From Cyanobacteriota bacterium (lineage in GTDB: Bacteria > Cyanobacteriota > Cyanobacteriia > PCC-6307 > Cyanobiaceae), in assembly GCA_026389255.1 (NCBI GenBank), contig JAPLIF010000267.1, positions 1 to 12,826 of the forward strand: a DNA stretch of 12,826 nt. Direction: 5' to 3'. Below, piece by piece: positions 1 to 12,826 of the stretch (positions are counted from its first letter, which is position 1; each line of letters opens with the position of its first letter). The notes beneath the pieces were generated by a model. That model saw only the letters and a program-made list of their open reading frames with translations. It did not search any database and was not told the DNA's origin. A program made the position numbers and the translations under genes.

Positions 1-1
1 G

Positions 2-109
2 ATTGTCCTGAACGAAGGGGAACGCTGCCCAGGGGAGAAAAAATTGCTGCCGGAGATCGCCGGCAGACTCATCACCTACCAGCCCATGAGCAAAGCATCA
101 TCGGTGTAG
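2..109 (+). CDS. Possible 3' end of an unidentified gene (partial)
   Basis: An open frame enters from the left edge and stops at TAG (107-109), giving about 35 residues that end in AGRLITYQPMSKASSV. Third codon positions are mostly G or C, as in the neighbouring GC-rich gene, which is the main reason to list it. I do not recognise the peptide and can assign no function. Against it, the frame runs across the inverted repeat that best explains the tRNA-Ser terminator on the other strand, and it would converge on the tRNA gene with only five bases between. It may be chance. The upstream sequence is needed to decide. Confidence 0.3.
   Translation: MVLNEGERCPGEKKLLPEIAGRLITYQPMSKASSV
38..66 (-). 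terminator. Intrinsic terminator downstream of tRNA-Ser
   Basis: Read on the minus strand, CTGCCGG (66-60) and CCGGCAG (53-47) form a perfect 7-bp, GC-rich stem with a 6-base loop, followed by CAA and six T (43-38). It lies 48 bases past the 3' end of tRNA-Ser and in its direction, so it probably ends the tRNA transcript, and also that of murF-alr if the two are co-transcribed. Confidence 0.8.
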
Positions 110-114
110 GGCAA

Positions 115-203
115 CGGAGAGGGAGGGATTCGAACCCTCGACAGAAGTTGCCTCCTGTAACTCCTTAGCAGGGAGCCGCTTTCGACCACTCAGCCACCTC
201 TCC
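115..203 (-). tRNA. tRNA-Ser, anticodon GCU
   Basis: The minus strand folds into a complete class II tRNA of 89 bases. The acceptor stem GGAGAGG (203-197) pairs fully with CCTCTCC (122-116), and the discriminator base is G, as expected for serine. The anticodon stem GCTCC/GGAGT encloses the loop CTGCTAA, giving anticodon GCT, which reads AGC and AGU. The long variable arm ACAGGAG-GCAA-CTTCTGT is the serine identity element, and the T arm GAGGG-TTCGAAT-CCCTC is perfect. The 3' CCA is not encoded and must be added after transcription. The gene lies 53 bases downstream of murF-alr in the same direction and has its own terminator at 38-66. Confidence 0.97.
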
Positions 204-256
204 AGTGGCTTGATAACTGTACCTGAACAGCCACCGGTGCCACCGGGTCCTCTCCC

Positions 257-2668
257 TCAGTCGTTGCGGAAAATGCGCTGCACCCTCCTGCTGTCGACAT
301 TGACAAGCAGCTCGTAAGGAATGCTCCCAGCACTGGCGGCCACCTCCTCGGGTCGGAGAACCTGGCCCTGGTGGCTGCCAAAAATCAGCACTTCATCCCC
401 CACGGCCGCATCGGGAACAGCCGTGAGATCAACCGCCATCGAGTCCATCGACACCCTGCCCAGGATCCGGGCCCTCTGGCCCTGGACCAGAACCGCACCC
501 GTATTCGATAGGCGCCAGGGCACGCCATCGTTGTATCCGGCCGCCACGATGCCGATCCTCTGCTGCTCTTGCTCAACGACATAGGAGCCGTTGTAGCCCA
601 CCCGTTGACCGCGGGGCCATACAGCCACCTGAGCGAGGCGACTCACAAAGGCCAGCGCCTGCTCCAGTTCAATGGCCCCAGCCACTTCAGACGAAGGGGC
701 AATACCGAACAACCCCAGGCCCAACCGCACCATGTCGTAGCGAGCCCCTGGGAAACGAACGGCGGCGGAGGTGGCGGCGGCATGAATGCAAAGGGGTTCG
801 TCCCCTTCGGACCGGATGGCGGCCACCACCTGATCAAAACGGGCCAATTGCTGCTCGCTATGGCGATCAGCGGCCTGATCGTCGGCCCCGGCGAGATGGG
901 TCATCACGCCCCGCAATCGCACCACCCCAGAGCCGCGCAAGAGTCGGGCCGCCGCCAAAGCCTCTTCGGGAGGCACGCCAAGTCGTCCCATCCCCGTATC
1001 GACCTCGAGGTGCACGTCACACTCGGCCCCCATGTCCCGGAGGGACTCGACCAGGGACCGAGCCAAGGGAAGCGAATAGACAACAGGGGTGAGGCCACAG
1101 CGAACAACCTTGTCGACCTCCTCCCGGTCCATCAGCATGACCAGGATCGGGAGGAGGACTCCGGCACGACGGGCCAACGCGCCCTCATCAGCCGTAGAGA
1201 CACCGATCCAATCCACCCCGCTTGCCTGCAAGGCCAGCGCCAGCCGAGGCAATTCTGTGCCGTAAGCCCAGGCCTTGAGGACAGCCAGGATTGCCACCCT
1301 GGGGCCCGAAAGAGCTCGGAAGCGAGCCACATTTTCCCGGATGGCGCCCAGATCAATGAACAGCCTCCGGGGCGCCATGGATTCCCAGATGGCTGGCGCC
1401 GCCGCCTCAAGTCCCTCAGCGGCAGCTGCCTTCATCAACACAAGGTCCCCGGGTTGGGCCAGATCCCGGACTTGTTGCCGCAGACCTTGCCAATCAGGCA
1501 CCTTGAGAAGCGAGGCCTTTGGACGCAACGACAACCAGCCTGCGCAGGTGGAACCACTGGCGGCGTGGGGCAGAAGAAGGAGGTGCGTGAAGCCGCGCTC
1601 GGCAGCGACCCGACCGATCAAGCCATGCTCGCGGTGTTCCCGGGCACCGAGATCGGCCATGCCACCAAAGACAAACAGACGCCGATGGCCGGTGCTTGGG
1701 GTTGCGGCGACGGTATCCAGGGCCGCCTGGACCGAAAGGGGATCACTGCTGGCAGTGTCGTTGATGATGGTGATTCCCTCAGGTGTGCACCAGGTCTCCA
1801 TGCGGGTCGGCCCAATCAGAAGATCCTCGACCAAGGGCAGGGAACGGGTCCGCACTGGCAAGGTCAACTGCTGATCGGCGAATTGCAGGGTGAGGGCGAA
1901 ACCGGTGGCGGTGGGACGACGCGCGATGAGCCGGGGCCAGTCCCTGCCGGGATGGATCCGCTCGCAGGGCAGGGGCAGGTCCTCCAGCAGGGGATCAGCC
2001 GGGGCGATCAACCAATGGGAAGCGGGGAGATGACGGAAGAGCCCCATCTTTTCGCGGGCAATCGCCTCGCGGCTCCCGAAGGCGGCGAAATGGGCAAGTC
2101 CCACGTTCACAAGTACGCCGTAATCAGGCCGCAGGATGGCTTCGATGGCCTCCATTTCCCCCGGGGCCGAGATCCCGGCTTCAAACACACCGATCTGGCT
2201 ACCAGGCGGAGCACCAAGAACAGCCAGGGGAACCCCCACCTGGCTGTTCCAGCTGCCCGGGCTGGCCGTCACGCGGAAACGGGACGTCAGGCAGGCCACG
2301 AGGGCGTCCTTGACCACTGTCTTGCCATTGCTGCCGGTGATCGCGACCACCTGGGGCAGGTACTGGTTGCGATACCAGCCCGCAAGTGCCTGAAGGGCTG
2401 ACAAAGGATCATCCACCTCAAGCCGAGGTATGTCGGCCAAACCCATCCCACGGGCCACAAGCACGAGGGCAGCCCCAGCCCCAAGGGCCGCAGGCACAAA
2501 GTGATGGCCATCCTTTTGACGCCCTTTAAGAGCCACAAAAAGATCCCTTGGCTGGACCCGACGCGAATCGATCGCCACTCCATCAATCGCGATATCAGGG
2601 GCGGCATCGCGCAAGTCAGCACCCAGGATTCGAGCCAGGTCGCATCCTCGGGGCAGGGTCATCGCCAT
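257..2668 (-). CDS. Bifunctional MurF-type ligase / alanine racemase fusion
   Basis: Two consecutive peptidoglycan steps appear in one 803-residue cytoplasmic protein. The C-terminal half should racemise L-Ala to D-Ala with PLP; the N-terminal half should join D-Ala-D-Ala to the UDP-MurNAc-tripeptide. Residues about 1-430 are Mur ligase-like: DSRRVQPRDLFVALKG near 34-49, P-loop TGSNGKT at 111-117, FEAGIS near 162, the NVGLAH histidine near 193, AREKMGLF with the likely carbamylated lysine near 207, PTRMET near 287 and IND near 302. Residues about 435-803 are alanine racemase: PLP lysine in LKAWAYG (about 465), DTGMGRLG, YDMVRLGLGLFG, catalytic tyrosine in VGYNGSY (about 692) and GRVSMD. The fused order, NSQVGVPL, FEAGISAPGEM and MVRLGLGLFG resemble the Bacteroidetes MurF-Alr fusion; in most bacteria the genes are separate. 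The MurF part lacks a recognisable HNxxN helix. I chose the ATG at 2668; 2662 and 2722 are alternatives, and no strong ribosome site decides. GC content is visibly high. Confidence 0.92.
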   Translation of the reverse strand: MAMTLPRGCDLARILGADLRDAAPDIAIDGVAIDSRRVQPRDLFVALKGRQKDGHHFVPAALGAGAALVLVARGMGLADIPRLEVDDPLSALQALAGWYRNQYLPQVVAITGSNGKTVVKDALVACLTSRFRVTASPGSWNSQVGVPLAVLGAPPGSQIGVFEAGISAPGEMEAIEAILRPDYGVLVNVGLAHFAAFGSREAIAREKMGLFRHLPASHWLIAPADPLLEDLPLPCERIHPGRDWPRLIARRPTATGFALTLQFADQQLTLPVRTRSLPLVEDLLIGPTRMETWCTPEGITIINDTASSDPLSVQAALDTVAATPSTGHRRLFVFGGMADLGAREHREHGLIGRVAAERGFTHLLLLPHAASGSTCAGWLSLRPKASLLKVPDWQGLRQQVRDLAQPGDLVLMKAAAAEGLEAAAPAIWESMAPRRLFIDLGAIRENVARFRALSGPRVAILAVLKAWAYGTELPRLALALQASGVDWIGVSTADEGALARRAGVLLPILVMLMDREEVDKVVRCGLTPVVYSLPLARSLVESLRDMGAECDVHLEVDTGMGRLGVPPEEALAAARLLRGSGVVRLRGVMTHLAGADDQAADRHSEQQLARFDQVVAAIRSEGDEPLCIHAAATSAAVRFPGARYDMVRLGLGLFGIAPSSEVAGAIELEQALAFVSRLAQVAVWPRGQRVGYNGSYVVEQEQQRIGIVAAGYNDGVPWRLSNTGAVLVQGQRARILGRVSMDSMAVDLTAVPDAAVGDEVLIFGSHQGQVLRPEEVAASAGSIPYELLVNVDSRRVQRIFRND

Positions 2669-2766
2669 TGGGGTTGATCCCGGGGAAGATTGGGAAGGCC
2701 CTGTGACAAAGCACACCACCATCCTGCAGGACCCTGGCTAAGCTTTGGGCTGCCAAGGGGGCAGGC
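2669..2766. other. Divergent spacer between murF-alr and the HNH gene
   Basis: These 98 bases separate two divergently transcribed genes and should hold promoters for both. I cannot point to a convincing -35/-10 pair on either strand. A perfect 10-base palindrome TCCTGCAGGA sits near 2733-2742. On the plus strand, AAGGGGG lies just upstream of the HNH ATG and could serve as its ribosome binding site. If murF-alr used the earlier ATG at 2722, the spacer would shrink to 44 bases. Confidence 0.5.
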
Positions 2767-3267
2767 ATGGGCCATGTTCTCGTTCTGAATGCCTCCTACG
2801 AACCTCTCAACATCACCACATGGAAGCGTGCGGTGGTGATGTTGTTGAAAGGCAAGGCCGAGGGGCTTGAACATGACCCAACATTTTTGTTGCGGCCTGA
2901 TCAAATGCGACCCACCGTGATCCGACTTCGTCAGTTCGTTCGGGTTCCCTACCGTCAACTGCCCCTGACCCGGCGCAATATTTTCCAGCGCGACGGACAT
3001 GCATGTCAATACTGTGGGTATAAAGGAGACAAGCTCTCGATTGACCATATTCAGCCCCGCAGCCGTGGTGGCATCAACAGTTGGGACAATGTAACAACCG
3101 CTTGCCTTCCTTGTAATGTTCGCAAAGGTAACCGCACACCCCGGGAAGCCGGCATGGCCCTGGTTCGCCCCCCCCATCGGCCCTTGAGCAGTCTTAGCTT
3201 CGAAGCCAATCGCCAGATACGAGACGGAAGGAACAAAGAATGGGCAAAATATCTAATTGACGAGTAA
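2767..3267 (+). CDS. HNH endonuclease-family protein
   Basis: This 166-residue protein has the layout of the small HNH proteins found throughout cyanobacteria. The N-terminus VLVLNASYEPLNITTWKRAV is the family's typical opening. The nuclease core has Cys80-x2-Cys83, Asp93-His94 in SIDHIQPRSRGG, Asn108 in WDNVTTAC and Cys113-x2-Cys116-Asn117. This is the zinc-braced HNN form of the betabeta-alpha-metal fold, with His94 as presumed general base. All expected residues are present, so metal-dependent nucleic-acid cleavage is possible, but no target or physiological role is known to me. No restriction methyltransferase or intron is adjacent, so it is neither an obvious restriction enzyme nor a homing endonuclease. 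AAGGGGG shortly before the ATG supports the start. It converges on prfA with 17 bases between the stops, and I see no hairpin there. Confidence 0.93.
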   Translation: MGHVLVLNASYEPLNITTWKRAVVMLLKGKAEGLEHDPTFLLRPDQMRPTVIRLRQFVRVPYRQLPLTRRNIFQRDGHACQYCGYKGDKLSIDHIQPRSRGGINSWDNVTTACLPCNVRKGNRTPREAGMALVRPPHRPLSSLSFEANRQIRDGRNKEWAKYLIDE

Positions 3268-3284
3268 TTTTCCATACCCAATCA

Positions 3285-4400
3285 TCAACCATTAGCTCCC
3301 ATAGCCTCACTGGCAAGGTCCTCTAACTGGCGACTCTGTTCAGCCGCAATGCAGGCCTCAATAGGCTCCTGAAGCTGACCGGTAAGAACAGTATCCAGGG
3401 CAAAGTGACGATTAAGGCGGTGATCAGTGGCGCGATTATCCTTGTAATTATAGGTTCGAATCTTCTCACTACGATCACCACTTCCCACCTGGGCACGCCG
3501 TGCCGAACTCTCAGCAGCGTTAGCAACAGCAAGTTCCCGTTCATAAAGCTTAGCCCGAAGAATCTCAAAAGCCCGCTCGCGATTCTGCAGTTGACTGCGC
3601 TCCTGGGTACAAAAGACCCGAATCCCAGTGGGTTTGTGCAAAAGATCGACAGCCGTCTCAACCTTATTCACATTTTGCCCCCCTGCCCCACCCGATCTGG
3701 CTGTGCTGATCTCCAAATCTCCAGGCTCAATGTGCACTTCGACTGGATCCACCTCAGGCATCACCGCCACCGTGGCCGTTGAAGTATGGACGCGACCCTG
3801 GGATTCGGTGGCCGGGACCCTCTGGACCCGATGCACGCCAGCCTCAAATTTCAACTGGCTGTAAACACCAACGCCACGGATCGCAAGAATCAGTTCGCGA
3901 TACCCGCCCAGATCCGCCTCAGAAGCACTCAAGGGCTGGGTTATCCAGCCCCGGCTCTGGGCATAGCGCTCGTACATGCGAGCCAGATCACCAGCCCAGA
4001 GAGCCGCTTCATCGCCACCGGCACCAGCTCGAATTTCCAACATGACACTGCGCTCATCTCGGGGGTCGGAAGGAACCATGGCCAAGAGAAGTCTTTGGCG
4101 TAAACCAACCAACTCCTGTTCCAGATTTTCAATTTCTTCAGCAGCCAACTCGAACAGCTCTTGGCCTAAAGGATCGCCTCGATATTGACGTAAAAGGTCG
4201 CGGGCCTGATTTTGCTCCGTCTGCAATTGGAGCATTTTCTGATAATCAAGGACCATCGGCTCAAGCTTGGCCCGCTCCTTGGCGAGGGTTTGTAGTTGGC
4301 TGGGATTCGTCACCAGGGACGGATCGGCCAGTTGACGCTCCAAGGCTTCAAACGTGCGACAGGTCGTTTCCAATCGTTCGTTAAGCAGGGCTGAATCCAT
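3285..4400 (-). CDS. prfA: Peptide chain release factor 1
   Basis: Release factor 1 recognises UAA and UAG in the ribosomal A site and triggers hydrolysis of peptidyl-tRNA. With the ATG at 4400 ([11 protein letters not shown]) the protein has 371 residues, close to the family's usual 360. The codon-recognition tripeptide PAT is at about 196-198, within [18 protein letters not shown]. The catalytic GGQ is at about 240-242, in [15 protein letters not shown]. The N-terminal third is the helical domain, and [14 protein letters not shown] near 315-330 is typical of the C-terminal part. An in-frame ATG at 4424 adds eight residues but would overlap the poly-T tail of the upstream terminator, so the downstream ATG is preferred. 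Only 25 bases separate that terminator from the start, so expression needs read-through or a promoter overlapping the terminator region. No strong ribosome binding site is seen. Confidence 0.97.
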
Positions 4401-4425
4401 GGGCGGGCCTAGTTCCAGATACAAG

Positions 4426-4455
4426 AAAAAAGCCGGCTACCACAAGGCAGCCGGC
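4426..4455 (-). terminator. Strong intrinsic terminator after rpmE
   Basis: On the minus strand, GCCGGCT plus GCC (4455-4446) pairs with GGT plus AGCCGGC (4441-4432). The result is a 10-bp stem with one G-T pair and a TTGT loop, followed at once by six T (4431-4426). It begins 21 bases after the rpmE stop and is the clearest end of the ribosomal-protein transcription unit in the window. Confidence 0.92.
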
Positions 4456-4476
4456 CGCAGCAAGAAAACCTGAAGA

Positions 4477-4731
4477 TCAGGCCGATGCAGGTGGGGTTTT
4501 GGCTTCAGAAGATGCCGCTTCCGAGCCACCCATGCCGTACTTACGCATGAAACGGTCAACACGGCCTTCGGTATCAAGGATCTTCTGGGTCCCCGTGTAG
4601 AAAGGATGGTTGCCACTCCAAACATCCACGTGGAGCTCTGGTTTGGTGGAACCGGTGGTCATAATCACTTGACCGTTACAGATGACCTTGGCATCTGGAT
4701 ACCAAGTGGGATGGATGTCGGCCTTCGGCAT
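4477..4731 (-). CDS. rpmE: 50S ribosomal protein L31
   Basis: L31 bridges the large subunit and the small-subunit head. This 84-residue form starts MPKADIHPTWYPDAKVICNG and has the family core ELHVDVWSGNHPFYTGTQ, followed by DTEGRVDRFMRKYG. It keeps only one cysteine (position 18). The second pair normally preceding HPFYTG is replaced by WSGN, so this is the zinc-free type. The C-terminal tail GGSEAASSEAKTPPASA is low in complexity and probably disordered. The start lies 27 bases after the rpsI stop, and the gene is followed by the terminator at 4426-4455, so it is the last gene of the operon. The ATG fits the family's N-terminus. Confidence 0.96.
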   Translation of the reverse strand: MPKADIHPTWYPDAKVICNGQVIMTTGSTKPELHVDVWSGNHPFYTGTQKILDTEGRVDRFMRKYGMGGSEAASSEAKTPPASA

Positions 4732-4758
4732 GACTCTGGAAGTAGGAAGGGAAGGAAA

Positions 4759-5166
4759 TTAGCGTTTGGAAAACTGTGGTGCCTTACGGGCTTTCTTGAG
4801 ACCGTACTTACGGCGTTCCTTGGCTCGTGGGTCACGGCTGAGGTGCCCTTCGGCCTTCAGTGGTTTGCGGTTATCGGGAGAAAGATCACAGAGCGCCCGA
4901 GCCGCGCCTTGCTTAATGGCATCGGCTTGACCGGTCAGACCACCGCCCCGCACATTAACGAGCAGGTCGTACTGGGACTCCAGACCAAGCGTCTGAAGGG
5001 GAGCCTTGACCGAAGCCAGATAGACAGGGTTGTAATTGAGATAGTTGTCACCGGGGCGACCATTGATGGTGACGCTACCGGATCCGGGAACGACGCGAAC
5101 CCGAGCAACAGCGGTTTTACGGCGTCCCGTTCCCCAATACACAACACGGTTGGATGAACTGGTCAT
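4759..5166 (-). CDS. rpsI: 30S ribosomal protein S9
   Basis: S9 sits in the head of the small subunit, and its C-terminal tail reaches the P-site tRNA. The 135-residue product opens with [18 protein letters not shown] and ends with [12 protein letters not shown], the universally conserved basic tail whose last arginine approaches the tRNA anticodon stem. The middle [21 protein letters not shown] is also standard. The ATG at 5166 overlaps the rplM stop in an ATGA arrangement, so translation of the two is very likely coupled, as is common for the L13-S9 pair. Length and motifs are normal. Confidence 0.98.
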
Positions 5167-5615
5167 TGGGCTGAGGCGGAAGGATTGAGGGCGAGGATCT
5201 GGGGCTGCTGGGCGCCATGGGGATGCTCAGCGCCTCGATAAACCTTAAGCTTACGGAAAAGCTGGCGGCCGAGGGCATTGTGGGGCAGCATACCCTTGAT
5301 CGCTTTCTCGACGATGCGCTCGGGGAGGCGAGCTTGGAGATGGGCGAAAGTCTCAGTCTTCATGCCACCAGGACGACCCGAATGGCGCCGGTAGACCTTC
5401 TGAGTGGGCTTGTTGCCGCTGACACGGACCTTCTCAGCGTTGATAATGACAACAAAATCCCCCGTATCCATGTGGGGTGTGAAGGTGGGCTTGTTCTTGC
5501 CTCGCAGAACCTGTGCCACCTCACTGGCCAGGCGTCCGAGGGTTTGGTCTGCCGCATCCACTACAAACCATTGTCGGTCCAGGGATTCAGCAGAGGGTTG
5601 AGATGTCTTGTTCAT
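5163..5615 (-). CDS. rplM: 50S ribosomal protein L13
   Basis: L13 is an early assembly protein of the large subunit that binds 23S rRNA. The 150-residue protein has the family motifs in order: [62 protein letters not shown], and [13 protein letters not shown] followed by [12 protein letters not shown]. The ATG at 5615 is the first in frame that fits the family's N-terminus. Its stop overlaps the rpsI start by four bases. Upstream lies the longest within-operon gap (116 bases to the end of the open truA frame, up to 256 if truA really ends at 5872), so a local promoter or leader element here is plausible, though I could not define one. Confidence 0.98.
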
Positions 5616-5731
5616 GAAGCCAGGGTGGGCCCCGTTGGGGCATCAGGAAGGGGGTGTGGATCGGGTCAGGAAACCCATTTGCCAAACCATGGGCCAGGCG
5701 AAAGATGCCGCCTACGGCTCAAATCAATCTT

Positions 5732-6607
5732 TTACTTTACCTGATCACCTAGCCGATGATGCTCAACTGGTTTGCAGGAACAGCCAGGGTGGGACGGCCT
5801 GGGGCTTGAGCATGATGAGCCAGGCTCTCCTTGCGCCACGAGGGGCTTGAAACAACAAACTCGAAAGTAAGTCAGAAGACAACCGAATCGGCTTGTTCGT
5901 GCCAGCCAAAATAAAATCTCGGCTGAGTATCGTACCCTACGCCAACGGCTGGAAAAAGCATCCAGGGAAAGGGAGCACTCACCAACGGCAACAACCTGCC
6001 CCATCAATAAACGGACCATGCCGTAAAGGAATCCGCTGGCCTGAATTTCAGCAACCAACAAAGGCCCTTGGCGAACCAGGCTCACGTCCTGAACAGTTGT
6101 GCGTGAATGGGCTCGGTGACTTCCTGCCCGTTGAAAAGCTGCAAAATCGTGCTCACCAATAATATCTGAAAGCGCAGCTGCCATCAAGTTTTCATCAAGT
6201 CGTTTTTTATACCGATGCCAGCTCCAAGGTGCCAAAAAAAGATTGGGAATTTGTCCATTATAAATAGTATACCTATAGCGGCGATACTGGGCGCTGTAGC
6301 AAGCATGCCATGAGCTGTTGACCTCGGCTGCTGCTCGGATGCGAATTGATTGAGGTAGACGTCCATTGAGAGCAGCCGGCCAACGATGGGGAGGGATTGG
6401 ACCAGCGGAATCAAAATGGACGACTTGAGCCGCAGCATGAACACCAGCATCTGTCCTGCCGGCGGCAACAACCCTGTGGTGAACACCAGGTTCAAGTTGA
6501 GCTAATTTATCCTCTAACGCACATTGCACGGAAGAGGCATTGGTTTGGCGTTGCCAACCAGAAAATCGACTGCCGTCATATTGAAGGCAGAGAGCAATGC
6601 GACGAAT
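5732..6607 (-). CDS. truA: tRNA pseudouridine(38-40) synthase TruA, possibly degenerate
   Basis: TruA converts uridines 38-40 of the tRNA anticodon stem-loop to pseudouridine. The conserved core is clear. [12 protein letters not shown] and GWQRQ form the first strand and loop. [18 protein letters not shown] carries the catalytic aspartate, and RYRYTIYNG and [21 protein letters not shown] follow. Both ends are abnormal. The frame that encodes the N-terminus has no ATG, GTG or TTG between its upstream stop (6638-6640) and those motifs. An ATT at 6605-6607 stands exactly where a start is expected, five bases after the rplQ stop; the first canonical start, GTG at 6529, would drop the first strand. 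After RWRR (about 5936-5946) the sequence turns into a Ser/Cys-rich tail unlike the family, and the closing APAxGL motif is missing. The gene may be decaying, may start at a near-cognate codon, or may contain sequence errors. As drawn it has 291 residues. Confidence 0.75.
5752..5820. repeat. Imperfect inverted repeat between the truA core and rplM
   Basis: The arms 5752-5766 and 5806-5820 are inverted copies that match at 12 of 15 positions, including a perfect 8-base core (ATGCTCAA / TTGAGCAT). They enclose 39 bases, which contain a smaller CCAGG/CCTGG inverted repeat. In RNA this would be a branched or bulged hairpin. No T-run follows on the minus strand, so it is not a simple intrinsic terminator. 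It lies under the unrecognisable C-terminal stretch of the truA frame, about 140 bases before rplM. It could be an rplM leader structure, an RNA processing site or chance. Confidence 0.45.
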
Positions 6608-6612
6608 ATGGA

Positions 6613-6963
6613 TCAGACCAATTCGATAATTGCCATCTCAGCATTATCGCCACGACGGGGAACTGTACGAATAATCCGCGTGTAGCCACCGTTTCTATCA
6701 CCGTAGCGATCGGGGACTTTGTCGAAGAGGGCGTGAACGAGTTGCTTATCGTAGATGTAGCCAATCGCCCGGCGTCTTGAAGAAAGACTACCTTCCTTAG
6801 CCAAGGTGATCATGCGTTCAGCTTGATCACGGAGGGCTTTGGCGCGGGCTTTTGTGGTGGTGACACGACCTTCACGAATCAATTGGGTGGTTAGACCCCG
6901 CAACAAAGCTTTGCGTTGATCTGCGGGTCGTCCGAGTAAGGGGACGCGGCACTGGTGGCGCAT
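6613..6963 (-). CDS. rplQ: 50S ribosomal protein L17
   Basis: L17 lies near the polypeptide exit tunnel of the large subunit. With the ATG at 6963 the product has 116 residues, the normal bacterial length, and begins [20 protein letters not shown], the expected L17 opening. [19 protein letters not shown] and a [20 protein letters not shown] end region follow. A longer in-frame start at 7041 would add 26 unrelated residues overlapping the end of rpoA, so it was rejected. The stop TGA (6613-6615) is five bases before the presumed truA start, which suggests translational coupling. rpoA lies 31 bases upstream, the standard alpha-operon order. Confidence 0.97.
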
Positions 6964-6994
6964 GACGTTAAAGAGTGAGAGGGGAAAGCAGCCT

Positions 6995-7933
6995 TCAAGC
7001 CGTTGTGCGGCTTTGGGGGAGTGAGATGCCGATACGCTCAAGGGCTTCGATCACCTCGTCGGCAGACTTAGAACCGAAATTCTTAATCTCTAGGAGGTCT
7101 TCATAACTGAAGCCCATTAGATCTGATACAGAGTTGACCTGAGCACGCTTGAGACAATTGTAAGCCCTTACTGAAAGATTAAGTTCTTCGAGGGGGATTT
7201 GAGCCTCAGCTGTGGTCTCCGGCTCAAGTCCTGGATCCTCCGTAGTGGTAAGGGTTGCAAGGGGTTGGAAAAGGGATATCAACTGGTTTGCAGCTTGCGC
7301 CATAGCATCATCGGGAGTGATGCTGCCGTTCGTTTCGATCTCAAGCCTCAACCGTTCACGAGCCGAACCGCCTTCTCCTACAGCAGTCTCATCTACACTG
7401 TAGTTGACCCTACGAATAGGCATAAACACAGCATCAATCTGGAGTAGATCAATGGCGCTGGTCTCTTCATTGTGACGATCGACAGGTCTGTAGCCGATGC
7501 CTCGTTCAACATGAACTTCCATCTCAAGGCTATGGCCTTCAGCAACTGTGGCGATCGGTCGATCAGCATCAATGACTTGAACCTGGGATGAAAACTGCAA
7601 ATAGGAAGCAGTCACGGTGGCAGGTCCATTGACAACTAAGCGACCAATTTCTACCTCACGACTGCGACTGTTGACAGGAACAGACTTACAGTTAAGAAGA
7701 ATGTCCAGAACGTCTTCTCTGACCCCAGGAACAGTGGCGTATTCGTGGTTCACACCAGCGATACGGACGGCCGTGATGGCACTACCTTCTAAGCCGCCAA
7801 TCAAAATGCGGCGCAGGGCAGTGCCAAGGGTTGTGGCCTGACCTTTGTCCAGGGGACCGATCAAGAAGACGCCGATCTGGGAACGGTCATCGGCAACCTG
7901 ATGGTCAACGCGATCGATCTGGTATTGCAACAC
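6995..7933 (-). CDS. rpoA: RNA polymerase subunit alpha
   Basis: Alpha forms the dimer on which beta and beta' assemble; its C-terminal domain contacts upstream promoter DNA and activators. The 312-residue protein begins with a GTG codon at 7933 ([16 protein letters not shown]). The N-terminal assembly domain shows [31 protein letters not shown] and [27 protein letters not shown] and the [20 protein letters not shown] segment follow. A linker with several Thr and Glu near 230-245 leads to the complete C-terminal domain from about residue 249, with [20 protein letters not shown] and [18 protein letters not shown]. The motifs are cyanobacterial in character. It lies between rpsK (34 bases upstream) and rplQ (31 bases downstream). 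Confidence 0.98.
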
Positions 7934-7967
7934 GGTCTGGATGGCAGGGGTAAAACAGAATTCAGGA

Positions 7968-8360
7968 TCAGACGCGACGTCGCTTGGGGCGACGGCAGCC
8001 GTTGTGGGGCAGGGGAGTGACGTCCCGAATCAGAGTGATTTCTAGACCAGCAACCTGGAGAGCTCGGATCGCAGTTTCACGCCCGGAACCAGGCCCACGA
8101 ACCAATACCTCAATCTGGCGCATACCTTGCTCAAGAGCACGGCGACCAGCAGCCTCGGCGGCGGTTTGCGCCGCAAATGGTGTACCTTTGCGAGCTCCTT
8201 TGAAGCCGCTGGCTCCGGCTGAAGACCAACTGATCACCTCCCCCGCCGTGTCTGTAATCGACACGATGGTGTTGTTAAAGGTGCTTTGAATGTGGGCAAC
8301 TCCGTTGGGGACGTTGCGCTTGGCCTTTTTAGGGCCTGTTTTTTTGGCTGGCTTCGCCAT
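7968..8360 (-). CDS. rpsK: 30S ribosomal protein S11
   Basis: S11 lies on the platform of the small subunit, near the E site and the mRNA exit. The 130-residue protein has the lysine-rich N-terminus [20 protein letters not shown], the core [20 protein letters not shown] and [19 protein letters not shown], the RNA-binding [18 protein letters not shown], and the arginine-rich end [15 protein letters not shown]. The length is normal and the ATG at 8360 is the obvious start. The 76-base gap to rpsM upstream and the 34-base gap to rpoA downstream keep it in the same transcription unit. Confidence 0.98.
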
Positions 8361-8436
8361 GGCTTATGGCCTGCAGGGCAGGGATGGGTTCGGGGGAAAG
8401 GCTGGGGGAAGGAGGACTGATGCAGGGCCTAAAGGC

Positions 8437-8802
8437 CTACTTCTTCTTGCCGGCGACAGTTTTGCGAGCACCACGACGGGTACGGGCATTGGTACGGGTA
8501 CGTTGACCTCGTACAGGCAAACCCATGCGGTGGCGCCGACCGCGCAAACAACCGATGTCTTGGAGTCGTTTGAGGGCCAAGCCCACCTCACGACGAAGAT
8601 CACCTTCTAATGTGAAGGTTTCAGCAGCTCCGCGAAGTTTCTGGACATCAGCATCGCTGAGGTCCTTGACCCGAATGTCGGGACTGACACCGGCCTTGGC
8701 CAGAATCTTCTTCGCCCGGGTAAGACCGATCCCGTAGACATAGGTCAGGGAAATCTCGATCCGCTTGTCGCGGGGAATGTCAATACCGGCTATCCGTGCC
8801 AC
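8437..8802 (-). CDS. rpsM: 30S ribosomal protein S13
   Basis: S13 is in the head of the small subunit, contacts the P-site tRNA and forms bridges to the large subunit. The product starts at GTG 8802 and reads [20 protein letters not shown], the exact family N-terminus, for 121 residues. The helix-two-turn-helix region [18 protein letters not shown] and the basic end [18 protein letters not shown], followed by a lysine tail, are intact. The same frame is open for 59 more codons upstream, but that extension runs back through rpmJ in another frame and has no S13 similarity. The GTG start is therefore supported by homology rather than by a clear ribosome binding site. Confidence 0.97.
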
Positions 8803-8875
8803 TGGCGAAAGAAATCGAAGGAACTGGGGAAAAGTGATGTCACACCCAAAGGGTGACGGGAGGCCTTGAAGCAGT

Positions 8876-8989
8876 TCAGCCTTGACGCTGCTTGTGCTTG
8901 GGATTGGTGCAGATGACCATGACCCGACCGTGGCGACGGATGACGCGACATTTGTCGCACATCCGCTTGACTGAAGCACGCACCTTCAT
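8876..8989 (-). CDS. rpmJ: 50S ribosomal protein L36
   Basis: This very short gene encodes 37 residues, starting [20 protein letters not shown] and ending [11 protein letters not shown]. It is the standard L36 sequence, a small zinc-ribbon protein that helps hold 23S rRNA domains together. The zinc ligands Cys11, Cys14, Cys27 and His32 are all present, so this is the zinc-binding type, unlike the zinc-free L31 in the same operon. It lies 42 bases after adk and 73 bases before rpsM. The usual infA (and map) are absent between adk and rpmJ, as in other picocyanobacterial versions of this operon. Confidence 0.97.
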
Positions 8990-9031
8990 GGGCGGCGAGA
9001 CTCCGATTTGACAAACAAAAATACTACCACA

Positions 9032-9583
9032 TCAAGTGCCCAAGGAGAGTCTGATGTTGGCTGATACCTCGTCGACCGTTCCGGCAGCATCCACGGACAT
9101 CAAAAGTCCGAGCTGTTGGTAATGGTTGATCAAGGGGGCCGTCTGTTGATGATAAACCTCGAGACGGTGGCGAATCACAGCTTCGGTGTCATCAGCACGG
9201 CCGCGCGACAGCATGCGCTGGGAAAGGACCACATCAGGGAGTTCCATCAGGATCACTAATTCGATGGATTGGTTGAGCTGAAGCAACAGGGAATCAAGCG
9301 CCGTGGCTTGGCCAAGATTACGAGGGAATCCATCCAACAACCAACCCTGGGAATGGTCTTCAAGGCGATGACGAACGATGGCTAGCACAAGGGCATCGCT
9401 GACCAGCTCGCCCCTAGCCATTACCGCTTCCGCTTGCTGGCCTAGTTCTGTACCAGCAAGCACTTCGGCACGGAGCATGTCACCCGTGGAGAGGTGCAAA
9501 AGGTGATTATTGAAAGCTAGGCGCTGAGCTTGGGTACCCTTACCGGCACCGGGAGGACCCAGGAAAAGGAGACGTTGTTTCAT
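9032..9583 (-). CDS. adk: Adenylate kinase
   Basis: Adenylate kinase interconverts ATP plus AMP and two ADP, keeping adenylate pools balanced. The 183-residue protein has the P-loop GPPGAGKGT at 9-17, the AMP-binding STGDMLR at 32-38, LDGFPR at 83-88, and the arginine-bearing RGRADDTEAVIRHR at 127-140. The LID is the short form without the zinc-finger insertion, as in cyanobacterial enzymes of about 180 residues. The ATG at 9583 gives the normal start MKQRLLFLGPPG. The gene sits between secY (51 bases upstream) and rpmJ, its classic location, and is probably co-transcribed with the ribosomal genes. Confidence 0.97.
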   Translation of the reverse strand: MKQRLLFLGPPGAGKGTQAQRLAFNNHLLHLSTGDMLRAEVLAGTELGQQAEAVMARGELVSDALVLAIVRHRLEDHSQGWLLDGFPRNLGQATALDSLLLQLNQSIELVILMELPDVVLSQRMLSRGRADDTEAVIRHRLEVYHQQTAPLINHYQQLGLLMSVDAAGTVDEVSANIRLSLGT

Positions 9584-9634
9584 CGTTTGATTTAAAGCCC
9601 TGAAATAATAAATAGCAGAAGAGCTGAAGCCAAA

Positions 9635-10954
9635 TTAACCACGTACAATTCCCTCATATCTTTGGGAGATAACATAGGTTTGAACCTGCTTTGCGGTGTC
9701 AATAGCGACACCAACCAAAATCAACAGAGAGGTTGCGCCTATACCTTGAAAAGTCCTAACCTGAATTGCACCTTCAACTGCAGAAGGAATGATGGCTACG
9801 GCACCGAGGAATAAACCACCCAACAATGTTAATCGATTTCCTACATCGCCAAGGTAAGTAGCTGTTGCCGAACCAGGCCGAACACCAGGTATAGCGACGC
9901 CGTTTCTCTTTAAATTAGTGGCAATATCAAGTGGATTCACCGTAAGAGAAGCATAAAAGTATGAAAAACCTAAAATTAAGCCAAAATAGACTATGGCATA
10001 AACCCATGGCAAACTACTGTTAGGATTAAGATATCCCGCTAGTCGTATAAGCAAGGGATTGGAAGTAAAATTAGCCAGAGTAAGAGGTAAAAACAACATG
10101 GCCGAAGCGAAAATAATCGGCATGACTCCACCAGCATTGAGCTTTAAAGGGAGGTAACTTTGCCGAGCTGCCAGAACACCAGATCCACCAACTTGTCGTT
10201 TAGCGCTAACAATTGGAAGTCTACGGTTGCCTTCCTGAACAAGAATGATTCCGACAATAGTAAACAAGAAGATTAATAATAAGATCAAAATTCCGGTAAC
10301 AGTGCTGCGATCTCCACTTTGAGCTAGTTGTATCGTTGAGCCAAGAGCCCTAGGAAGAGTGGCAACAATATTGAGAAAAATAACAAGGGATGCGCCTTGG
10401 CCAGTCCCGCGTTCGGTTATCACTTCGCTAATCCACATCACAACCATGGAACCCGTGACAAGAGCTAAAGTGGTTTGGAGGACGAACAACCAGTCGGGCA
10501 AACCCGGAAGAGCGTACTGGCGAAGAATCAGTGCAAATACAAGACTTTGAATCATGCCCCAGCCGAGGGCAACGAATCGAGTAATTTGGGCGATCCTTCG
10601 TCGTCCTGCTTCACCCTCATTCTTCTGAAGATCTTCAAGGCTGGGCAGGGCAGCAGTTAGCAATTGGATAATGATCGAGGCATTAATAAATGGAAGAATG
10701 CCTAGACCAAAAATTCCTATTGTTGAAATGCCGCCTCCTGTGAAGATATCTAGAAAACCAATCAGTTGGCCACCGCGAGCCAAGAATTGCTGAAAGGCCA
10801 CCCGATCAATCCCGGGAACAGGGATGTAAACCCCCAAACGAACCAGCAATAAAAGACCAAGAGTGAGCAGGACTCTGTCCCGCAGACCTTTGGCCTGAAT
10901 GAGCTGGGTGAGAATTTCAGTGGCGCCTGGATTGCGACCCCGACTGAGAACCAT
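9635..10954 (-). CDS. secY: Protein translocase subunit SecY
   Basis: SecY is the channel-forming subunit of the Sec translocon. In cyanobacteria it serves both plasma and thylakoid membranes. The 439-residue protein shows about ten hydrophobic segments, starting with LLTLGLLLLVRLGVYIPVPG near 31-50. The plug and second helix region GGGISTIGIFGLGILPFINA lies near 73-92. The cytosolic loop ATNLKRNGVAIPGVRPG, which contacts SecA or the ribosome, lies near 346-362, and the C-terminus is TYVISQRYEGIVRG. No catalytic defect or truncation is seen. Its base composition is strikingly AT-rich compared with rpsE, rplR and murF-alr (one 60-base line at 10261-10320 has 20 G+C). rplO lies 63 bases upstream and adk 51 bases downstream. 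Confidence 0.98.
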   Translation of the reverse strand: MVLSRGRNPGATEILTQLIQAKGLRDRVLLTLGLLLLVRLGVYIPVPGIDRVAFQQFLARGGQLIGFLDIFTGGGISTIGIFGLGILPFINASIIIQLLTAALPSLEDLQKNEGEAGRRRIAQITRFVALGWGMIQSLVFALILRQYALPGLPDWLFVLQTTLALVTGSMVVMWISEVITERGTGQGASLVIFLNIVATLPRALGSTIQLAQSGDRSTVTGILILLLIFLFTIVGIILVQEGNRRLPIVSAKRQVGGSGVLAARQSYLPLKLNAGGVMPIIFASAMLFLPLTLANFTSNPLLIRLAGYLNPNSSLPWVYAIVYFGLILGFSYFYASLTVNPLDIATNLKRNGVAIPGVRPGSATATYLGDVGNRLTLLGGLFLGAVAIIPSAVEGAIQVRTFQGIGATSLLILVGVAIDTAKQVQTYVISQRYEGIVRG

Positions 10955-11017
10955 GGCGGTGAGGGATTAGGAGAGCAGATCAGACTTATAAGGAATGGAC
11001 CATTCCACCACCAATGA

Positions 11018-11476
11018 TCAATTGGTTACTTCACAGGAACCACCAGCAGCCTCAATCTTGGCCCGAGCACCAACGGTAAAGGCTGCAGCCTGCACATTGA
11101 GCTTGACCGACAGATCGCCGCTACCAAGCACCTTGAGCGCATACTTCGGACTTGTGACGAGACCGTCTTTGACGAGAGAATCTATCGTGACTGTAGATCC
11201 AGCCGATAGATCAGATAGATCGCCAACATTAATCACGGTGTAATAAGTCGGATTCACAAGCTCAAAATGCTTGAGTTTGGGGATCCGGCGATAAAGGGGC
11301 ATCTGGCCACCCTCAAAACCGGGACGAACAGGACGACCAGAACGGGACTTCTGGCCCCGCATGCCGAAACCGCAACTGGCGCCCTGGCCGGCAGCGATGC
11401 CCCGACCTTTACGCAGTTTGCGTCGCCGGGAACCTGGTTGGGGCTTGAGGGTGTTGAGGGAGAATGAGGATGTCAT
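11018..11476 (-). CDS. rplO: 50S ribosomal protein L15
   Basis: L15 is a late-assembly large-subunit protein that binds 23S rRNA through a basic, glycine-rich N-terminal arm. With the ATG at 11476 the protein has 152 residues, starting [20 protein letters not shown]. The arm contains [19 protein letters not shown] and [19 protein letters not shown]. The globular part ends [13 protein letters not shown], the normal L15 finish. GGAG lies seven bases before this ATG and favours it over an in-frame ATG at 11491, which would add MPEPP and crowd the rpsE stop. rpsE ends 20 bases upstream; rpmD (L30) is not present between rpsE and rplO, as is usual in cyanobacteria. Confidence 0.97.
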
Positions 11477-11496
11477 CGGGGGCTCCGGCAATGGGC

Positions 11497-12150
11497 TCAG
11501 GAGTAGATCTGTTCTAGGGAGATACCACGTTCTTTGGCAGTCTCCTTGTGGGTGCGCAGGGCCCCGAGGGCTTCCATGGCAGCACGGGCATTGTTCAGGG
11601 GTGTCTTGGATCCAAGACGCTTGGCCAGAACGTTCTTGATGCCGGCAAGTTCAAGAACCGTGCGGATCGAACCACCAGCAATAACGCCAGTCCCTGGTGC
11701 GGCGGGACGAATAAGGACACTCGCAGCGCCATCACGCCCACGGCTTTCGGTGGGTACTGAGCTGGTGCGGGTGAGGGGGACCTTGACCAGGTGTTTTTGG
11801 CCATCGGCGACACCCTTACGGACGGCACCGATCACATCGCCGGCCTTACCGACCCCGACGCCCACCTGGCCCCGTTCATTGCCAACGACAACGATGGCCC
11901 GGAAGCTCATCTTCTTGCCGCCCTTAACGGTTTTGGAGACACGTCGAATCTGAACGACCCGCTCTTGCCATTCGGAATCACGCTCTTGGCCACCGCGACG
12001 GTCGCCGCCGCGGCGTTGGCCACGACGATCACCGCCGCCGCCTTTGCCGTCACCGCGGCCTTGGCCCCGTCGTTCCTGACCATCGGCGCTAGGCACATCC
12101 GTGGCGGCAGGAATGTCGCCGGACTGAAGTTGTTGGTTGGTTTCGGTCAT
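11497..12150 (-). CDS. rpsE: 30S ribosomal protein S5 with Arg/Gly-rich N-terminal extension
   Basis: S5 lines the mRNA entry channel and affects decoding accuracy. The 217-residue protein is longer than the typical ~165 residues of non-cyanobacterial S5. The first ~58 residues form an extension, with an acidic/Gln-rich start and an RG/GGD-rich stretch near 26-55 such as [20 protein letters not shown]. The conserved protein starts at [19 protein letters not shown] and includes [39 protein letters not shown] and [14 protein letters not shown]. Similar low-complexity extensions occur in other picocyanobacterial S5, so it is probably lineage-typical. The ATG at 12150 is 14 bases after the rplR stop, with no strong Shine-Dalgarno. 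Confidence 0.97.
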
Positions 12151-12164
12151 GGTGAGCGGAGGAA

Positions 12165-12530
12165 TCAGAACTGAAGGCCCGCTTCCCGGGCGGCATCGGC
12201 GAGGGCCTTGACCCTGCCGTGGTACAGGTTGCCGCCGCGATCGAAGACCACCTGTTGGATGCCCTTGGCGAGGGCACGCTTGGCAACAAGCTGGCCCACA
12301 GCCACGGAAGCTTCACAAGTAGCACCGACGGCAAGGGCCGTACGAAGATCCTTGTCGAGGCTTGAAGCCGAGCAAAGGGTGCTCTGGGCATCGTCGTCGA
12401 TGACTTGAGCGTAAATGTGGTTGTTGGACCGAAATACCGCGAGCCGCGGACGCTCGGTGGTTCCGGATAGATAGCGACGCAGACGGCGATGGCGCTTCTG
12501 GGTCTGAAGTTTGCGGGAGAGAGTGGACAT
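12165..12530 (-). CDS. rplR: 50S ribosomal protein L18
   Basis: L18 binds 5S rRNA and anchors it in the central protuberance. The 121-residue protein has a basic N-terminus, [19 protein letters not shown], and the motifs [20 protein letters not shown] and [16 protein letters not shown]. It ends with the conserved [20 protein letters not shown] plus EAGLQF. The length is normal. The ATG at 12530 is 32 bases after the rplF stop, and rpsE follows 14 bases downstream, giving the standard spc-operon order. Confidence 0.98.
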
Positions 12531-12562
12531 GGGGATTCAGGGTATGAATGCTGGAGCCGAGC

Positions 12563-12826
12563 TCATTTCTTGCCGGTCTTACCCGCCTTGCGAAGAATTC
12601 GCTCACCTTCGTATTTGATGCCCTTGCCCTTATAGGGCTCCGGAGGACGAATGGCACGAACCTTGGCCGCCTCGTTACCAACAAGTTCCTTGTCCGCCCC
12701 GGAAACCAGGACAGTGGTGTTGTTCTCGACAGCGAAGGTGATGCCCTCGGGGGGCAACATCTCAACGGGGTGGCTGTAACCGGCACTAACCACCAACTTT
12801 CGACCCTGAACCTGAGCGCGGTAGCC
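12563..12826 (-). CDS. rplF: 50S ribosomal protein L6, 3' part only
   Basis: The frame enters from the right edge, so the first ~90 residues lie outside the window. The 87 residues present form most of the second L6 domain. They start [20 protein letters not shown], continue with [20 protein letters not shown], and end with the signature [20 protein letters not shown] and a lysine-rich tail. L6 binds 23S rRNA near the sarcin-ricin loop at the factor-binding site. The intact C-terminus and its position ahead of rplR leave little doubt about the identity. Confidence 0.97.

Follow-up and report, generated by a model that had tools for sequence, protein, structure and literature searches.

Fusions of the cell wall ligase MurF with the alanine racemase Alr already form a known, curated family, the bifunctional MurF/Alr of Bacteroidota (NF008897, PRK11930), and a related fusion gene is described here from a cyanobacterium of the family Cyanobiaceae (assembly GCA_026389255.1, contig JAPLIF010000267.1). 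The whole stretch of DNA analysed, referred to below as the window, comprises positions 1 to 12,826 of the forward strand of that contig (12,826 nt). The cyanobacterial gene has the domain order of the Bacteroidota fusions, can be aligned with them from end to end, and its Mur half falls into one clade with theirs; in addition, Phocaeicola carries a separate MurF beside its fusion, as do cyanobacterial fusion genomes. In contrast to the Bacteroidota proteins, however, the cyanobacterial copies score only 552-588 bits on NF008897 (cut-off 804), share about 27-29% identity with the four full-length Bacteroidota fusions sampled, reside in the slot of the native alr gene, and lack an Asn and a Tyr-Asn pair of the ligase site which the four Bacteroidota copies keep (the Tyr as Phe in one of them).

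With respect to the stand-alone enzymes, the racemase half resembles Alr (TIGR00492) in its complete catalytic set and in a score of 282 bits against a cut-off of 168, but it is fused to a Mur module and is only 31-34% identical to the native alr product encoded in the same slot. The Mur half in turn has the three domains of a Mur ligase with the P-loop and the metal ligands of MurF (TIGR01143), but with 286 bits it stays under the cut-off of 288.6 and has lost key residues on the adenine and phosphate sides. More distant parallels are the MurE-MurF fusions and the plastid MurE-like proteins, the latter with a role in transcription, where a Mur module is likewise joined to another member of the pathway or retained within a different complex; these lack a racemase domain, and the Mur half is less similar to them than to MurF. 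The chains 8f5d and 8w9z are among the matches of the Mur half.

The interpretation favoured here, to which we would assign a probability of about 0.6, is that a relative of the MurF-Alr fusions, acquired laterally long ago, took the place of alr in its own slot; it now provides the only recognisable racemase, and its Mur half is probably no longer a normal ligase and most likely a binding domain. According to this model, an ancestor of several picocyanobacterial genera would have received the fusion laterally long ago, and the fusion would have displaced the native alr in the same slot between an HNH gene and a tRNA-Ser gene; since then the two would have been alternative alleles of one locus, swapped by recombination in their shared flanks. 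The C-terminal half would interconvert L- and D-alanine, the D-Ala-D-Ala ligase Ddl and the separate MurF would carry out the later steps and thus complete the pentapeptide, and the Mur half would most likely bind the uridine diphosphate N-acetylmuramic acid (UDP-MurNAc) peptide and/or a nucleotide, thereby positioning or regulating the racemase.

The original prediction, made from the letters of the window, had described one uninterrupted frame encoding a Mur module followed by a full alanine racemase, and this description is borne out. A single stop-free frame of 821 codons extends from 2722 to 257 on the minus strand, its translation contains all motifs quoted in that prediction, and Pfam finds Mur_ligase, Mur_ligase_M, Mur_ligase_C, Ala_racemase_N and Ala_racemase_C in this order, all above their cut-offs. 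Position 2668 (MAMTLP), the start given in that prediction, agrees better with the start of many relatives than 2722 does. The gene and its parts are as follows.

257..2668, minus strand: MurF-like / alanine racemase fusion gene; the frame is open to 2722, with the conserved start at 2668.
1379..2668, minus strand: Mur half, comprising the N-terminal, middle and C-terminal domains of a Mur ligase; Pfam matches at residues 46-433, the border being the WESMAPRR junction common to the relatives.
257..1378, minus strand: alanine racemase half; Pfam matches at residues 456-817, TIGR00492 275 bits (cut-off 168).
2318..2338, minus strand: P-loop TGSNGKT of the Mur half, from the translation; the TGS-GKT positions are kept in 25/25 fusions compared.
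1823..1825, minus strand: Asp (window residue 300) where the Mur HNxxN motif has its second Asn, from the residue comparison across fusions.
1748..1759, minus strand: DTAS replacing DxYN of MurF (window residues 322-325), from the same comparison.
1274..1276, minus strand: Lys of LKAWAYG in the translation, which we take from known Alr structures to be the pyridoxal phosphate (PLP) lysine; kept in 26/26 racemase halves of fusions.
1812..1813, minus strand: point within the Mur half where 72 nt (24 amino acids) of the relatives are absent, probably an assembly gap.

NF008897 is also the best NCBIfam model for the window protein, which accounts for the lower of the two scores given above; the higher one belongs to an intact close relative, which aligns to model positions 8-819 of 822. 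Both scores are far above chance yet under the curated cut-off, which is exceeded by none of the 400 genomes sampled from the family, whereas a Bacteroides control exceeds it.

As the copy in the window is incomplete, inferences were drawn from its relatives. The close relatives are 88% identical in DNA over the window, and the missing stretch of 24 residues is present in all 25 other fusions that cover the region in the alignment. Since the same assembly also lacks 95 nt of truA and 243 nt of murF, the absence of these residues is more readily explained by an assembly gap than by a real deletion. The truA gene (5732-6529, minus strand) lacks its 95 nt at 5935 when compared to close relatives, leaving the C-terminal part out of frame, probably through an assembly gap as well, and the 243 nt missing from the stand-alone murF of the same genome (G000, contig C305, about position 2271) leave the frame intact. 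The window genome is a draft of 2.1 Mb in 376 contigs, 79% complete, and its three gaps relative to close relatives might suggest that the fusion itself is an artificial join. This explanation carries next to no weight, as the same fusion occurs in 25 other genomes, one of them a single contig and another consisting of two contigs, and as the junction is conserved among the relatives. An assembly join was thus rejected for the fusion, which 26 of the 400 family genomes carry, and only the internal gap of 24 residues stays suspect.

These 26 genomes belong to three genera. Among the genomes listed for each genus, the fusion is found in 20/42 of g1 (the genus of the window), 4/12 of g45 and 2/2 of g66, with 362 of the 400 genomes drawn having any match at the threshold; in one genome (G383) the gene is broken between the ends of two contigs. 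A set of 25 genomes from the window's genus comprises 12 carriers of the fusion and 13 genomes with a stand-alone Alr. Throughout the phylum, only three of 386 genomes carry the fusion at the thresholds used, and all three belong to this family. A single scan of viral contigs for relatives yielded 15 stretches fitting a pattern, none of which encoded one.

In all 13 fusion loci examined the fusion is bordered by a divergent HNH gene on one side and by tRNA-Ser(GCT) on the other, and in all six fusion-free relatives the native alr occupies the same slot in the same orientation. The bordering genes in the window are the following.

114..204, minus strand: tRNA-Ser (GCT), one border of the exchanged slot.
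2767..3267, plus strand: divergent HNH gene, the other border of the exchanged slot.
3285..4424, minus strand: prfA, adjoining the HNH gene in 12/13 fusion loci and in 6/6 fusion-free loci examined.

In the remaining fusion locus, that of G373 (L094, 6224-12770), prfA and the HNH gene are about 5 kb apart.

RpoB matches were obtained in 28 of 30 genomes, 14 with and 14 without the fusion, and on the resulting rpoB tree the fusion state requires six changes, at least four of which are forced by well-supported branches. Two pairs of sisters differ in their allele, namely G157 (fusion) and G109 (native), with a support of 100/100, and G068 (fusion) and G175 (native), with 100/98. When the flanks of the first pair are compared in 32 bins of 250 nt, G157 and G109 share 78-95% identity in 28 bins and 62, 64, 69 and 75% in the other four; in the bin adjoining the gene on the HNH side, G157 is nearer to the fusion carrier G068 (80%) than to its sister G109 (69%). 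In six pairs of genomes the synonymous divergence of the fusion (0.55-0.84) compares with 0.61-1.01 for prfA and 0.40-0.63 for rpoB, and in three pairs involving the relative G019 it exceeds 1 and is near saturation. Between G157 and G068, however, the value for the fusion is lower (0.29 versus 0.48 for prfA and 0.38 for rpoB). Taken together, sister pairs, flank identities and synonymous divergence indicate that the fusion is old in the group and that the alleles have been swapped since, the exchange being presumably brought about by recombination in the shared flanks. GC content was considered as a mark of recent import and rejected, as the fusion has 64% compared to 67% for the contig carrying the genome's own murF; lower values nearby belong to prfA (55%) and secY (46%). 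In the same rpoB tree, the sequence of G016 (L170, contig C89) branches beside that of G075 from genus g52 and not with its own genus, owing either to transfer or to contamination of the bin.

With regard to the enzymes of the pathway, exactly one match over the Alr cut-off was found in each of 28 genomes searched, 26 of which are fusion genomes. None of these 26 has a second racemase over the cut-off, the search having covered Alr and not other routes to D-alanine such as D-amino acid transaminase; an additional match of 28-44 bits, far under the Alr cut-off, was seen in nine of them. Of the 12 fusion genomes in the set from the window's genus, 11 have a separate MurF listed, the one without a listed match being G005, a draft that is 84% complete. 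The searches of the window genome suggested in the original prediction accordingly gave no stand-alone alr over the cut-off besides the fusion, and a stand-alone murF on contig C305. Ddl exceeds its cut-off in five of seven genomes tested, three of the five being fusion genomes; no Ddl over the cut-off was found in the window draft and in G001, which may reflect their incompleteness. MurF uses as its substrate the dipeptide made by Ddl. The further proposal that the fusion couples the production of D-alanine to its use is therefore unsupported as it was put, given that MurF uses the Ddl dipeptide, that a separate MurF accompanies the fusion in 11/12 genomes and that conserved ligase residues have been lost.

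The separate phylogenies of the two halves argue against descent from the native murF and from the same-locus alr. In a tree of the Mur half (53 of 59 rows, six fusions being left out) the cyanobacterial fusions group with the four Bacteroidota fusions with a support of 99/99, apart from all 29 stand-alone MurFs, and the stand-alone MurF of Phocaeicola falls outside this clade although Phocaeicola has both MurF and fusion. The grouping persists without the long Riemerella branch (99/97, 46 rows), and a placement of the Mur half with the native cyanobacterial MurF is rejected (approximately unbiased test, p-AU = 0.0035). Moreover, V138, S158, S161, M191 and E225 are common to 4/4 Bacteroidota and 25/25 cyanobacterial fusions, whereas at each of these positions at least 27 of the 29 stand-alone MurFs agree on another residue. 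Common ancestry of the Mur half with the Bacteroidota fusions is thus indicated by the sequences, with the qualification that the tree has long branches and four Bacteroidota rows. In the tree of the Alr half (68 of 75 rows, without six near-duplicate or partial fusions and one further row under the limit of 300 amino acids), a clade of 33 rows (100/99) unites the native cyanobacterial Alrs and excludes the fusions, while four Alrs of other classes of the phylum fall elsewhere; joining the fusion Alr to the native alr found at this locus in the family is rejected (p-AU = 0.016). In line with this, the fusion Alr prefers the fusion model to the general one (331 vs 282 bits), as do 2/2 Bacteroidota fusion Alrs, whereas 8/8 stand-alone Alrs prefer the general model. 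Lateral acquisition and membership in a little-described cyanobacterial clade of fusions, which had been offered as alternatives, therefore apply together: the gene is foreign to both the native murF line and the same-locus alr, and it recurs in 26/400 genomes of the family.

As to the active sites, the Mur halves of 25 cyanobacterial fusions were compared with 29 stand-alone MurFs and four Bacteroidota fusions, using the residue numbering of G019. All 25 cyanobacterial fusions retain the P-loop, Glu182, Lys226, Arg332 and the DSR and DGH positions, and 24/25 retain His212; Asp347 is invariant in the 12 fusions aligned. The exception is the fusion of G157 (L058 / L090), which has Asn where every other fusion compared has this His. 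The second Asn of the HNxxN motif (N300D) is replaced by Asp in all 25, and the Tyr-Asn of DxYN (Y349, N350) is Ala-Ser in 23 and Ala-Ala in two. The same three positions are conserved in the stand-alone MurFs (Asn 29/29, Tyr 28/29, Asn 29/29) and in the Bacteroidota fusions (Asn 4/4, Tyr 3 plus one Phe, Asn 4/4). For the structure of Mpl it has been described that a His and an Asn four residues on bind adenine, that an Asp binds ribose and that the residue three after this Asp binds phosphate (PMC3060825). By our own mapping, these adenine-, ribose- and phosphate-site roles may be carried over to the corresponding MurF positions. Because the adenine-side Asn and the Tyr-Asn of the C-domain have been lost, the Mur half is probably not a normal MurF ligase; on TIGR01143 the Mur half of the intact relative (286.1 bits) and the window protein (253.6 bits) are both under the cut-off.

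Nevertheless, the Mur half is under purifying selection, since its ratio of nonsynonymous to synonymous substitution rates (dN/dS) of 0.12-0.48 resembles the 0.22-0.41 obtained for stand-alone MurF, even though the ligase site has changed. The Mur half evolves faster than the Alr half, with a median dN/dS of 0.36 versus 0.24. These figures derive from 186 of 276 pairs of fusions, for which dS was 0.15-0.9 in the Mur as well as the Alr half, and from 34 of 36 pairs of stand-alone MurFs with a dS of 0.12-0.9. As selection still maintains the Mur half, it would most likely serve as a binding domain. The Alr half looks active: Lys508, Tyr512, Arg605, Arg691, Tyr735, Met784 and Asp785, to which we presumptively ascribe catalytic roles from known Alr structures, are present in 26/26 fusions, and the TIGR00492 cut-off is passed by the window protein and the intact relative alike. 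An AlphaFold prediction had a mean pLDDT (predicted local distance difference test) of 36 and was not used.

Several observations weigh against the model of replacement by a relative of the known fusions. The general MurF model gives the Mur half of the intact relative a better score than the fusion model does (286 vs 247 bits), although the gap is far larger for native MurF (346 vs 117 bits), and long branches meet in the trees of both halves. In the Alr tree the cyanobacterial fusions group with Alrs of Thermomicrobium, Streptomyces, Comamonas and Shinella and with one Alr from a non-photosynthetic class (98/95), and the Bacteroidota fusions are placed apart from them, with three Firmicute and Fusobacterium Alrs (99/90); this separation notwithstanding, a joint placement of the two is not rejected (p-AU = 0.162). 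The impression that the gene looks like a Bacteroidetes fusion hence holds for the Mur half by its trees and for the Alr half by its profile preference, but not by the Alr tree. Because that tree separates the fusions, the identity is about 27-29% and only four Bacteroidota fusions were sampled, these data do not single out Bacteroidota as the donor. The simplest reading of the sequences would be one origin of the fusion with a donor outside the few Bacteroidota sampled, and a separate origin of the Alr half is compatible with these results. Nor is a grouping in which the Alr half joins all native Alrs of the class rejected (p = 0.18), which together with the position of the gene in the native alr slot could speak for a fusion assembled at home from the native murF and alr, independently of Bacteroidota. 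Such an origin is very improbable in view of the p-AU tests, which reject a grouping of the Mur half with native MurF and of the Alr half with the same-locus alr, the derived Mur residues common to the Bacteroidota fusions and the profile preference of the Alr half. Finally, the P-loop and the metal ligands kept in the Mur half are what an active ligase would need.

This last point leads to the function of the Mur half. If both halves were active, the Mur half would be a second, perhaps condition-specific MurF coupled to D-alanine production, a view with which the retained P-loop, Glu, Lys, Arg and His, a dN/dS in the range of MurF, a score just short of the murF cut-off and the unlisted separate MurF of G005 would agree; it is nonetheless doubtful, given that Asn300, Tyr349 and Asn350 are lost in 25/25 while stand-alone MurFs and Bacteroidota fusions keep them, that a separate MurF is listed in 11 of the 12 fusion genomes of the set from the genus, and that the fusion of G157 has even exchanged the His. 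The loss of the ligase residues and the faster change of the Mur half would suit a structural relic which binds nothing relevant and is kept for the folding, dimerisation or solubility of the racemase. This is slightly less doubtful but still unlikely, as a passive scaffold would have no need of the P-loop, the metal ligands or the DSR and DGH positions of the N-domain, all of which are retained in 25/25. Within the favoured model of a binding domain, one tentative possibility is that the Mur half is a sensor of cell wall precursors, binding the UDP-MurNAc-peptide or a nucleotide without ligating it and thereby setting the activity or location of the racemase. If so, picocyanobacteria with the fusion allele would control their D-alanine supply by feedback at the enzyme level, whereas sister strains with the plain alr would not.

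The existence of a cyanobacterial clade, its exact substitution for alr as an allele of one locus and the changes in the Mur site appear to be new. A search of open-licence PMC (PubMed Central) full texts for the MurF-Alr fusion by name, or for alanine racemase in picocyanobacteria or Cyanobium, returned nothing relevant. At this locus, a core cell wall gene has been replaced in place by a distant and larger homologue that coexists with the native gene as an allele down to rpoB sisters, and such sisters offer natural pairs for testing what the fusion with MurF contributes beyond a racemase alone, which is of interest for the Bacteroidota as well. The locus further suggests that a Mur ligase module can lose its ligase residues yet stay under selection when tied to a racemase. 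With regard to annotation, the label 'bifunctional MurF/Alr' should not be transferred to these genes without a test.

A problem of labelling was also seen in a plasmid database, where Bacteroidota murF-alr genes and some ordinary alr genes are called 'vanT' at 33-37% identity (L085-L088, L145-L147), which looks like over-prediction. On a plasmid of Anoxybacillus amylolyticus (L149, 1-1753), a gene for a D-Ala-D-Ala ligase lies directly 5' of murF.

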